Positions 400 to 46,546 of a DNA stretch of 64,000 nt are shown piece by piece. A program made the translations under genes and the position numbers. The number at the start of each line of letters is the position of its first letter. Position 1 is the stretch's first letter. This DNA comes from Butyrivibrio sp. AC2005 (lineage in GTDB: Bacteria; Bacillota; Clostridia; Lachnospirales; Lachnospiraceae). The stretch spans positions 1-64,000 of the forward strand of contig NZ_AUJI01000030.1 of NCBI RefSeq assembly GCF_000424145.1, written 5' to 3'. The notes under the pieces were generated by a model that was given only the letters and a program-made list of their open reading frames with translations, made no database searches and had not been told where the DNA came from.

Positions 400-649
400 C
401 TGCCTCATTCTGGTCTTTTCATGATATAGGCAGTTCATTTTAAGGAGTGTTTTCTGCCTCTATTTCACTTTTATTTAATATCGGCAGTTGATTTTACCTC
501 TGTTATTCTGCCTATATCAGCAATATTTGGAATGTAGGCAGAGTACTTGCCATTAAAATAACTGCCTATATCTGCATTTATCGGGATATAGGCAGAACTT
601 CGACCACAAATTGAACTGCTACAATTAATAGCATCCAAGATTGTAGCAG
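400..649. repeat. Array of alternating inverted 7-bp words, 27-bp step
   Basis: Ten 7-bp words of the CTGCCTA type alternate in orientation with exactly 20 bp between neighbours, so each orientation recurs every 54 bp with no indel. Forward words start at 400, 454, 508, 562 and 616. Reverse words start at 427, 481, 535, 589 and 643. Each forward/reverse pair can form a hairpin of 34 bases. Pairing extends to 11 bp in unit 562-595 (CTGCCTATATC with GATATAGGCAG) and to 10 bp in unit 616-649 (CTGCTACAAT with ATTGTAGCAG), so the two stems differ by compensatory changes. The 20-bp spacers are all different. The array lies about 110 bp beyond the end of the type VII operon. Function unknown. Confidence 0.9.
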
Positions 650-20637: not shown

Positions 20638-20718
20638 TTCTTAAATGTTGATATGTATAACATTTTTATATTCTAAAATGTTGATTTGAATGCATTTTAA
20701 ACATTCCAAAATGTTGAT
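20638..20718 (+). repeat. Three direct repeats with exact 33-bp period before the AAA ATPase gene
   Basis: The 15-bp element TTCYWAAATGTTGAT occurs at 20638-20652, 20671-20685 and 20704-20718, exactly 33 bp apart (about three helical turns). Inverted partial words (AACATTT at 20659, TGCATTT at 20691) lie between them. The last copy ends 11 bp before the ATG, so protein binding here could block translation or transcription. Likely an operator or autoregulatory site. Confidence 0.7.
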
Positions 20719-44161: not shown

Positions 44162-45259
44162 TTAAACTGCATTTTTCAGTAGTGCCTCTACTTCCTGCCT
44201 CTTTTCATACAACACGCATCCGCCTTCATGATCATCCAAGAGCACGCCTTCCTTTTGGAGCGCCTTGAACAGCCTCGAATTAATGGCATCTCTGAGAGAA
44301 GTCTTTTTTACATTTATATCCGAATATGGTGAAAACGGGCATGGTTCCGCTCCTCCATGTGAGTTGATGTGAAAAAATCCGCGTCCTGCAGCAATACATC
44401 CACCTGAGTTTTTCTCATCTCCGGGGAAAGAAACAAAAACCATTTCAGGATGCTCAGTCCTAAGCCTTGCGATCTCTTTTTTCAGATATTCCCTTTCTTC
44501 CTCTCCGGGTGCCAGATACTCTGCATCCTCAGTTACCGGTACAAACTCAACGAATATCACTGCCTTACATCCTTTATCAGACAGCATACTTATGAAGTCT
44601 TCAGAAGAAACATCCTTTAGATTCTGCGTCGTTACCGTAACTGAAGCACCGTAGATGAGTCCTCTCCTGTTTAGTTCATCCATATTTGAGACGAGTTTAT
44701 CATATACACCCTCGCCCCTTCTTGAATCAGTGGCTTCTTTCCCACCCTCAATACTCATGATGGGCACAAGATTTCTGTTCTTATCAAACAAATCAAAGTA
44801 CTTGTCAGCCATATATGTTCCGTTAGTAAATATCGGGAATAGGATATTCTGCTTTTTACCCGCAGCTTCTATTACACCTTTTCTAAGGAGCGGTTCTCCA
44901 CCAGCAAGAAGTATGAAGCTTACTCCCAGATCGTCCGCCTCATCGAAAATCTTAAGCCATTCGTCATCAGTCAGCTGCTCTACCGGCTCTGTGTCCTCTG
45001 TTGCGTTATTGCATCTTGAATAGCATCCACTGCAGTGAAGATTACAGCTGCTTGTAATGCTGGCAATAAGGAAAGGCGGAATATGTTCGCCTTCTGCTTC
45101 CAGCTCAGCTCTTTTCTTTGATGCGCTTTTTGACGCCAATGCAAATTTCGCCATGTACGCGCTTTCTCTTGGATTTCTTAAGGTAGCCCTTATGGCATCA
45201 GAAACCACTCTCTCAACTCCATGTGTCATGTATTCCTGTATATCAAACTCTTTTTCCAT
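44162..45259 (-). CDS. Radical SAM protein
   Basis: 365 residues from the ATG at 45259 (AAAGG site). The CxxxCxxC cluster motif is CNLHCSGC (Cys 72, 76, 79), followed by FILLAGGEPLLR (GGE). C-terminal Cys residues (GGCIAAGRGFFHI, AEPCPFSPYSDIN, GGCVLY) may bind a further cluster, as in SPASM or twitch domains. Such proteins modify peptides, lipids or cofactors. No precursor peptide gene is visible next to it. The N-terminal 60 residues are helical and basic. Confidence 0.9.
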   Translation of the reverse strand: MEKEFDIQEYMTHGVERVVSDAIRATLRNPRESAYMAKFALASKSASKKRAELEAEGEHIPPFLIASITSSCNLHCSGCYSRCNNATEDTEPVEQLTDDEWLKIFDEADDLGVSFILLAGGEPLLRKGVIEAAGKKQNILFPIFTNGTYMADKYFDLFDKNRNLVPIMSIEGGKEATDSRRGEGVYDKLVSNMDELNRRGLIYGASVTVTTQNLKDVSSEDFISMLSDKGCKAVIFVEFVPVTEDAEYLAPGEEEREYLKKEIARLRTEHPEMVFVSFPGDEKNSGGCIAAGRGFFHINSHGGAEPCPFSPYSDINVKKTSLRDAINSRLFKALQKEGVLLDDHEGGCVLYEKRQEVEALLKNAV

Positions 45260-45444
45260 AAACCTTTTACCTTTCATCAAATTACTGCAAGGGTATGCTC
45301 AATGAAAAGATTATAACACATTTTGTATTTTATGCAATATAATTGGTCTCAATATCTTATTTTATATTTCGGCTCTTGTTATTTCAATAAGTCAAAAATC
45401 AAGCTGAAGAACTATCTCTTCATCATTCTTTTACAACAAGAATT

Positions 45445-45722
45445 CTAACGCAATTTTATGTAATGCTTTTTGCAGCAGGCTATTTTAAACCACCATCTCC
45501 TGCTGCTATTTCATTTTGTCGCATTTGAAGCAGTCGCTTTTTATATCTAGTGTCTACCGCTATCTCTGTTCGTCTAATATGCAGCAGACGTTTTACCCCA
45601 TATTACTCTGCCGCATATTATCTCTTTCTTATTTGCGTTAGAAAATATATTCTAAAATCAACTGCTGCAATCACCTATTTTCATATTTGTAGAAGACATT
45701 ACAACCAAATTCCAACTGCCTC
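45445..45722. repeat. Second array of alternating inverted 7-bp words, 27-bp step
   Basis: Eleven CTGCYGC-type words alternate in orientation with 20-bp spacers (one is 21). Forward words start at 45445 (CTAACGC), 45500, 45554, 45608, 45662 and 45716. Reverse words start at 45472, 45527, 45581, 45635 (GCGTTAG) and 45689. The register, 7+20+7+20, and the CTGC core equal those of the array at 400-649, 45 kb away. Not all pairs are complementary here, so the word positions rather than hairpins are what is conserved. It fills the gap between the radical SAM gene and the XRE gene. Confidence 0.85.
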
Positions 45723-45726
45723 CTTC

Positions 45727-46398
45727 CTATCCAAACAGCATATCCGCTGCTTTTTCCAGATCTCTGCGTTCCTGTGAATCATCATATCCGCTTTCCCTGT
45801 CATCGATGCCCTTTACCGGATCAATAGAGAACAGACCATCCCGGTTGCAGTAAAAGAAGATTCTTCTGACTCCCCTGATTTTAAATCTTGCTTCAGCGTT
45901 CCCTTCCGGGTAGAGCTTCACCATCTGCATATCATCGGATGACGACGCCGCCACAAACGAAATGTAATGCTCCTTCGTCATGCTGTGATCAATCCGCACA
46001 TAATACTCATCCTCCACACGCTCGATAAAAGCCATGTGCTGTTCATCTGAAGGTTCTGCCTCTAAAGGTATAAGCTGGATGCCGTGACAATGGATCGCTG
46101 CTTCGCCCATGCTGTGTATCACATTCCCGCAGACCGGGCAGACATAAAACTTTGACCGCAGCATATTTGCGGATACATTCGCATTATGAATAGTATTGCC
46201 TGATATCAGCTCCGTCACTGAAATGCTGAACGCCTCCGCAATAGGCTCCAAAAGAGTAATGTCCGGAAAGCCTTTGGCAGTTTCCCATTTTGACACACTT
46301 TTATCACTCACTCCCAGCTTTTCCGCCAGCTCGCTCTGTGTCATTTTGTTCTTTTCCCGCAGTTCCTTAATAACTGCGCCTGTAACATATTGGTTCAT
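45727..46398 (-). CDS. XRE regulator fused to a superoxide-reductase-like domain
   Basis: 223 residues from the ATG at 46398 (GGAGGTG site). The N-terminal XRE HTH is IKELREKNKMTQSELAEKLG then SDKSVSKWETAKGFPD. Then comes a rubredoxin-type CPVCG knuckle and a beta-sandwich resembling neelaredoxin/desulfoferrodoxin (HYISFVAA; AEARFKIRGVRRIFFYCNRDGLF). It probably senses superoxide or iron through the metal centre. The word array at 45445-45722 starts 5 bp beyond its stop. Confidence 0.85.
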   Translation of the reverse strand: MNQYVTGAVIKELREKNKMTQSELAEKLGVSDKSVSKWETAKGFPDITLLEPIAEAFSISVTELISGNTIHNANVSANMLRSKFYVCPVCGNVIHSMGEAAIHCHGIQLIPLEAEPSDEQHMAFIERVEDEYYVRIDHSMTKEHYISFVAASSSDDMQMVKLYPEGNAEARFKIRGVRRIFFYCNRDGLFSIDPVKGIDDRESGYDDSQERRDLEKAADMLFG

Positions 46399-46546
46399 AT
46401 TCGTTCTCACCTCCATGCACAGATTGTATATCAACACGAAAAAATAGGGTACCTACGGAAAGTAGAGTCGGACGGATTATCTAATTATTCTCATCAGCAA
46501 TATTTCCGCCTTCAAGGATTGCTTCTGCTCATATTTCTTCTATTTT

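Follow-up and report, generated by a model that had tools for sequence, protein, structure and literature searches.

Dispersed arrays of alternating short words and an associated PD-(D/E)XK nuclease-like protein family in Butyrivibrio and other Clostridia

Repeated protein sites that adjoin the gene of the protein reading them are known from plasmid iterons, parS and other centromere arrays, and CRISPR and TIGR arrays combine a regular repeat/spacer layout with an adjoining nuclease gene. The closest described system is that of REP sequences, which are short, intergenic palindromic units of alternating orientation dispersed over a genome, and of RAYT genes, found as one gene per repeat type and often flanked by their own repeats (available text of PMC6006769 and PMC8049555). 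According to the same text, genomes with more than one RAYT gene type have a separate repeat family for each, and RAYTs are vertically inherited, whereas the abstract of PMC6006769 speaks instead of horizontal transfer followed by loss. No helical-turn ladder is mentioned in the available text of either paper.

Here, we investigated a repeat array at positions 45445..45722 (A2) of a 64-kb window, the first 64,000 nucleotides of a contig of Butyrivibrio sp. AC2005, together with a second array at 400..649 (A1). No strand is assigned to either array or to its parts. We consider it probable that A2 is a stand-alone copy of a multi-site array read by a cognate PD-(D/E)XK nuclease-like protein, that is, a REP/RAYT-like system with an unrelated enzyme in which the nuclease probably helps to spread the arrays. 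As in a REPtron, home repeats lie beside a gene, dependents lie elsewhere, and several types occur per genome. The enzyme, however, differs: the protein here is of PD-(D/E)XK type with invariant E164, D195, and E210-H211, whereas the RAYT core is HuH-Y1 (IS200-like). Also unlike a REPtron, each array here holds about 10 half-sites with a helical-turn ladder, there are several paralogues per genome, and folding of the repeats into hairpins is not supported by significant covariation in arrays of the CTGC type. With an unrelated enzyme, no conservation of hairpins found, and no ladder in the available RAYT/REP texts, the array system does not belong to the REPtrons.

The other systems are more distant in layout. 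Like iterons and parS, the arrays here lie beside the gene of their presumed reader, but they are dispersed over chromosomal contigs, their half-sites alternate, and the protein has a nuclease fold. In contrast to CRISPR and TIGR arrays, the words alternate in orientation, the spacers are often alike within an array, and the period follows DNA helical turns; the window has no Rfam match at the gathering threshold.

Words and register of the two arrays in the window

A2 is a stand-alone array of eleven 7-bp words of CTGC/GCAG type in alternating orientation. These are CTAACGC (45445), GCAGCAG (45472), CTGCTGC (45500), GAAGCAG (45527), CTACCGC (45554), GCAGCAG (45581), CTGCCGC (45608), GCGTTAG (45635), CTGCTGC (45662), GTAGAAG (45689), and CTGCCTC (45716-45722). 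The steps are 27 bp throughout, including all those of the right end (45608..45722, words at 45608, 45635, 45662, 45689, and 45716), except for one of 28 bp from GCAGCAG at 45472 to CTGCTGC at 45500 (45472..45506). The extra base is absent from four dispersed copies, and, judged by this comparison, the 28-bp step is a one-base insertion. An earlier note on this DNA had reported eleven words, 27-bp steps, and a single-base slip at 45445-45722, and its coordinates proved exact.

Counting core matches in the 27-bp alternating register, A2 scores 38 of 44. When the 64-kb window was shuffled 60 times with its dinucleotides preserved, the highest register score was 28, and the window without its two arrays scores 25. 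Chance or low-complexity DNA has nothing in its favor except that the word is short. Against it stand this shuffle test, a reversed-pattern control, and a second set of genes compared with controls (both below), and we regard its probability as negligible.

The array lies between two minus-strand open reading frames, both named by reading their sequences. On the left is a SPASM-type radical SAM protein (44162..45280, 372 aa), whose listed start is 164 bp from A2. On the right is an XRE-type regulator (45727..46437, 236 aa); the last word of A2 ends 4 bp short of its stop codon (45727), and relatives carry genes similar to this one without the array. A profile search of window ORFs of at least 60 aa found no member of the nuclease family described below. 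The window also contains a 33-bp tandem repeat of 2.5 copies at 20638-20718, which is of a different kind from the arrays.

A1 (400..649) has ten words, CTGC-type and GCAG-type in turn, with all steps at 27 bp and no slip. Its words are mostly CTGCCTM and TAGGCAG, the final pair is CTGCTAC / GTAGCAG, and there are exact four-word matches at 430, 484, and 538. The core common to both arrays is GCAG N20 CTGC N26 GCAG, and the equal register that the note had claimed for A2 and the array at 400-649 is indeed found in A1. Since the words alternate in orientation, the repeat unit is 54 bp. The proposal that a 7+20 spacing and the word itself are maintained therefore needs rewording: the unit is really a 54-bp alternating pair, one case of a whole-helical-turn rule, and word identity fails as a universal feature, as paralogues differ in their words.

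GCAG-N20-CTGC occurs 6 times in the whole window, a count that one other spacing likewise reaches. Spacing 20 was not enriched in 100 kb of control DNA from the same genome (2 occurrences versus a mean of 3.5 for other spacings). Because bulk DNA lacks this enrichment, the peak at 20 belongs to the arrays and not to bulk sequence; the sharp spacer peak for which the note had suggested a check is present inside arrays and absent from the histogram of bulk DNA.

Dispersed copies in the genome, the genus, and beyond

DNA similarity identified four further copies of A2 in the window genome, at C20:64025, C18:31733, C20:71106, and C18:66666 (74-92% identity). The stretch shared with copies, 45426..45720, is 91.6% identical to C20:64025, 91.1% to C18:31733, and 86.0% to C20:71106, and the C18:66666 copy is 74.2% identical to A2 over 45453-45700. 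A fifth similarity match, C53:13460, spans only 56 bases left of A2. The homology of A2 is array-sized, beginning 19 bp ahead of the first word and stopping within the last word in the best copy. Between C20:64025 and C18:31733, mutual homology extends about 100 bp further left and 35 bp further right.

A four-word pattern with up to two mismatches matched 40 places in the window genome, 36 of them in 12 arrays and 4 single; the reversed pattern matched 0. Across the genus, 27 of 79 genomes have an exact four-word match, compared with 0 of 79 for the reversed pattern. An exact six-word scan of a collection of species genomes gave 36 loci (26 in Butyrivibrio, 3 in Lachnospiraceae, 1 in Clostridiales, and 6 in other phyla). 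The six loci from other phyla were set aside before neighbor analysis as probable coding repeats or chance, and one of them, L041, turned out to be intergenic. The claim of a dispersed family in Lachnospiraceae is thus borne out by about 12 arrays in this genome and by the genus counts, and the genome search that could have overturned it turned up further arrays instead. The CTGC array at C5:69143-69520 of the window genome (L010:1290-1670) ends 8 bp ahead of a metallophosphatase-like gene (named by eye), a gap among the tightest observed.

Six stretches of viral contigs have the five-word pattern. A viral origin was considered and rejected: the one viral stretch inspected (L067) is a GC-rich repeat of coding appearance, and the portions of all six that were searched gave 0 nuclease matches.

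We also searched for sites from which an array is missing. The flanks of A2 were compared with the 79 genus genomes, 61 of which matched, and a 15-kb stretch with two copies was compared with 4 genomes. No clean empty site was seen in 29 inspected loci and one more, and the two flanks are not syntenic there. At the inspected loci, homology halts at neighboring genes or at the left end of A2, and the opposite side is never in place. Because the other flank is missing at every inspected locus, we claim no insertion boundary. Two arrays with matching flanks, of 10 and 14 words (L047 and L061), differ by 54-bp units by eye. As to the active function or amplification mechanism that the note had thought likely, array-sized dispersed copies and the 54-bp differences are seen, but no insertion event or clean empty site was caught, and the mechanism given below is put forward as our inference.

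A nuclease-like protein family beside the arrays

We clustered the proteins encoded next to the 30 Butyrivibrio, Lachnospiraceae, and Clostridiales loci. One recurrent protein of ~265 aa occurs at 9 of the 30, and a profile search recovered the identical 9 among all 36. The array lies 5' of this gene in all nine Butyrivibrio loci holding both (9/9), at a distance of 33-301 bp. The search for a co-occurring protein family that the note had proposed thus found a PD-(D/E)XK nuclease-like protein. There is also one short match to it: in L093 (G142:C13, ~249564-249955), the only exact four-word CTGC match of that genome lies just upstream of a 68-aa open frame with a short nuclease match (first ~65 residues).

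Pfam and NCBIfam assign no convincing family to the protein (53 members in the Pfam scan); a few isolated weak matches are below curated cut-offs or in a single member, and Y1_Tnp, the HuH-Y1 family, is not among the families listed for these 53. The C-terminal half matches PADLOC models of candidate defense proteins, PDC-S68 in 53/53 members and HEAT_CxxC_PDDEXK in 40/53. The nuclease domain is homologous to theirs; in contrast to them, the protein here is small and stand-alone, with its own N-terminal half and an array. An AF2 model has a mean pLDDT of 94.2. Foldseek returned weak matches only (best E 0.043), prominently Bax1, DrdV, MunI, BamHI, and Vsr, with prefoldin and other unrelated folds interspersed among the PD-(D/E)XK matches. 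Eight residues are invariant in 88/88 proteins: S161, K162, E164, D195, F196, E210, H211, and G213. Together, the AF2 model, the weak Foldseek matches, the PADLOC models, and these residues provide the core fold and the acidic active-site residues of a PD-(D/E)XK enzyme. The canonical lysine after the last acidic residue is absent, where the motif is E-H-x-G, and the invariant K162, two residues ahead of E164, may replace it. Because the active-site residues are invariant in 88/88, the putative catalysis is probably kept.

The protein is common: counting partial and domain-only matches, homologues occur in 74 of 200 genera sampled from the family of the window genome. With domain-only matches in larger proteins counted, they occur in 60 of 391 genomes at the level of the class and in 7 of 149 at that of the phylum. 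Some homologues are large proteins (~650-1260 aa) with the same nuclease domain, and these are probably related to PDC-S68.

Next to the nuclease genes, periodic repeats are common. In a first set, drawn from the family, a periodic repeat is found upstream of 66/82 genes, 59 with a period of at least 50 (8 of 90 genes with less than 300 bp upstream were left out); without nine loci chosen for their array, the count is 57/73. Random 800-bp windows gave 10/480 and the downstream sides 19/89. A second Clostridia set, in which most genomes are new and further families of the class are represented, gave 35/60 upstream, against 14/480 for controls and 5/58 downstream. It counts 60 of 69 loci, after exclusion of 6 partial genes and of 3 that the first set contained already; first-set orthologues and some shared genomes remain. 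These counts overstate the number of independent cases, because the genes are related and the two sets have some genomes and orthologues in common. Coding repeats, too, can register in the period test, and 7 of the 66 first-set matches have periods below 40. No upstream array was detectable at 16/82 genes of the first set and 25/60 of the second. As with a RAYT gene, then, the gene is flanked by its own repeat type in both sets.

The window genome has five nuclease paralogues, four with a flanking array and each of these with a different word. The C2 paralogue (C2:84900-85691) has CTGCYGC at 54 bp, the C3 paralogue GAGTCAA/TTGACT at 54 bp, the C16 paralogue TCAGGGTA/TACCCTGA at 53 bp in an array downstream of the gene, and the C13 paralogue TTCATCC/GGATGAA at 54 bp in a weaker array. 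The C8 paralogue has no clear array, with TTTGGTACC-like words seen by eye only. The CTGC-register score is 37 at the C2 nuclease locus and 25 at each of the other four. C2:84900-85691 is the sole paralogue of the five whose adjoining array shares the register of A1 and A2, which makes it their likely partner. A run of N lies inside the TCAGGGTA/TACCCTGA array downstream of the C16 nuclease (L223/L076).

No nuclease-family gene was found in 40 control stretches, several of which hold ladder-period arrays with inverted words; in some of these arrays, which are short, one reading frame stays open throughout, and it is not certain that all are non-coding. We picked 11 stand-alone arrays by eye from the periodic control windows, omitting coding-looking or simple repeats. 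Six of the 11 share words with a nuclease locus in their own genome, and 0 of 74-76 loci from other genomes score as high. They are the array at 265.4 kb of C2 in the window genome (matched with the C16 gene), one each in G479 and G506, the 55-bp array of G662, and two in G767. The remaining 5 were unmatched among the nuclease loci compared, which may be incomplete for G662, G373, and G767 and number one for G227. The nuclease copy whose locus bears the words of the 55-bp array (L336, G662:C1, ~632456-633243) is in two pieces. Dispersal of a repeat type within its own genome, a REPtron feature, is therefore seen here for A1, A2, and about 10 other arrays and for the six matched stand-alone arrays; it is not seen for the C3 array, which has no second copy in the window genome by BLAST.

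Of the 90 nuclease genes, 22 lie at recurrent chromosomal spots, named from sequence reading: after rplM-rpsI (6 loci, including C3 of the window genome), and at genes resembling ComEC (6), RlmD (4), lysyl-tRNA synthetase (3), and GMP synthase (3). These spots are more in keeping with part of the family being inherited vertically than with a freely moving gene. Read by eye, none of the recurrent neighbor clusters resembles a replication-initiator or partition gene.

Helical periods, inverted words, and the proposed mechanism

The upstream periods of the first set (n=70) fall into classes of 51-56 (33), 61-64 (15), 72-75 (13), and 84-85 bp (2); seven more, all below 40, resemble other kinds of repeat, and the ranges 57-60, 65-71, and 76-83 are empty. 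For the 63 periods of at least 45, the common spacing that fits best is 10.34 bp (R 0.855), which 0 of 2000 jittered sets equaled. The second set has periods of 42 (2), 51-54 (14), 61-65 (6), 73-75 (4), 83-87 (8), and 94 (1), with R 0.786 at 10.34 bp (0/5000 nulls) and a best spacing of 10.56. Two downstream arrays, at 66.0 and 71.2 bp, are between the main period classes. The simplest explanation of this ladder (~42, 53, 63, 74, and 85 bp) is whole turns of B-DNA, and whole-turn periods therefore point to a putative lattice of protein along one side of the double helix.

Period class tracks the protein tree, with 15 changes versus 29.8 in shuffles (0/200 as low; 88 proteins, 68 classed). Relatedness inflates the number of independent cases, yet the tree requires several changes of period class. 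Remnants of an unrelated MITE-like transposon that merely landed beside the nuclease family would account for the differing flanks of the dispersed copies. They would not account for the link of the arrays to a single protein family, seen in both sets, for their usual place 5' of the gene, for words that differ between paralogues, or for a period that follows the protein tree, and we consider such an origin extremely unlikely.

We folded 51 arrays at their own period (score at least 20, period at least 45, and at least 3 copies). Inverted arms were significant in 35 of the 51, with words that differ, for example, GTGACCGCA, TTACAACTG, GCGAACAAAA, and CATACGTTG. By turn class, the median outer span of the inverted repeat is 36.5 bp (5 turns), 40 bp (6 turns), and 50 bp (7 turns).

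Covariation and polarity were examined in 38 CTGC arrays (L038, L041, L043, L048, L055, L064, L065, and L067 were excluded), of which 17 have ten words, the commonest length. These arrays have an overall two-fold symmetry, with a flank preference mirrored between the halves (0/5000 within-array shuffles as extreme). The TTGATTTTA-like flank on GCAG words has 4.86 of 9 matches in the left half versus 2.53 in the right, and on CTGC words 4.43 in the right half versus 2.14 in the left.

A series of RNA or single-strand DNA hairpins, such as an RNA element or a REPIN-like element, would keep the pairing of neighbors. Neighboring words do follow a single consensus and its reverse complement, and matching changes occur in individual pairs, as in CTGCTAC / GTAGCAG at 616 and 643 of A1. 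Nevertheless, in the CTGC-type arrays true neighbors were not significantly more complementary than random pairs within an array: the excess for C-to-G pairs (n=226) is positive but was equaled in 133/2000 shuffles, and that for G-to-C pairs (n=198) in 348/2000. This agrees with the note's remark that not all neighboring words are complementary. The loop and the linker are also equally rigid, and the period shifts by whole helical turns, which is most simply a property of double-stranded DNA. The covariation test and the Rfam scan both disfavor a hairpin RNA, and we judge hairpins of either kind very unlikely. Because neighbor complementarity is not significant and the words are inverted, half-sites for a protein are favored.

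We infer protein binding, cutting, spreading, and any benefit to the host from these patterns. In the mechanism that we propose for the nuclease-like protein, each word would be a half-site, and word pairs would form inverted repeats, which span ~36 bp in the 5-turn class. A stack of these set whole helical turns apart could line up protein dimers on one face of the DNA. A gene with its adjoining array would be the home copy, through which the protein may sense or repress its own promoter, and stand-alone arrays would be dependents spread elsewhere. The reader of A1 and A2 is most likely the product of C2:84900-85691. Cutting near arrays, followed by repair, would probably lead to array growth in 54-bp units and to spread.

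The strongest competing reading is that the arrays are operators only or part of a conflict system. The protein would then be an autorepressor, or a nuclease of defense or conflict that is kept sequestered; stand-alone arrays would act as decoys or in regulation, and the nuclease would have no part in their spread. The array is mostly upstream of its own gene, paralogues differ in words as insulated regulatory pairs do, the domain is shared with the candidate defense proteins PDC-S68 and HEAT_CxxC_PDDEXK, and about a quarter of the genes sit at the recurrent spots described above. However, operators alone leave the dispersal of same-word arrays and the array-sized homology of A2-type copies unexplained, and a mere repressor would not need fully invariant catalytic residues. 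We therefore consider this reading rather unlikely, and spreading by the nuclease remains our preferred explanation.

More broadly, there is perhaps an even chance that these arrays represent an undescribed class of chromosomal system in Clostridia. Here, a PD-(D/E)XK family at stable places, each paralogue with a private word, would write or keep arrays at 4 to 9 whole turns and build one-sided nucleoprotein lattices at its own gene and elsewhere, as a self-spreading repeat system and possibly a chromosome-organizing or immune device. Our literature search, which covered few subscription papers, found no description of such arrays or of the protein family with repeats in titles and the openings of abstracts. 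If correct, this would be a second, enzymatically unrelated answer to the REP/RAYT question, namely why, and by what means, bacteria maintain dispersed repeats along with an enzyme dedicated to them. With their whole-turn period classes and differing words, the 51 folded arrays offer a starting data set on the co-evolution of DNA-binding specificity and helical phasing, and the family is a possible source of new sequence-specific DNA-reading proteins.

Lastly, the intergenic locus L041 (positions 2150-2420; Alphaproteobacterium MAG, VGCX01000021.1) has a 54-bp tandem array of 3.5 units with the inverted words CTGCTCA/TGAGCAG. It has a DUF4143 AAA gene on one side and an ATPase_2 gene on the other, lying immediately upstream of the latter, and an enzyme family other than the nuclease may use the array layout there.
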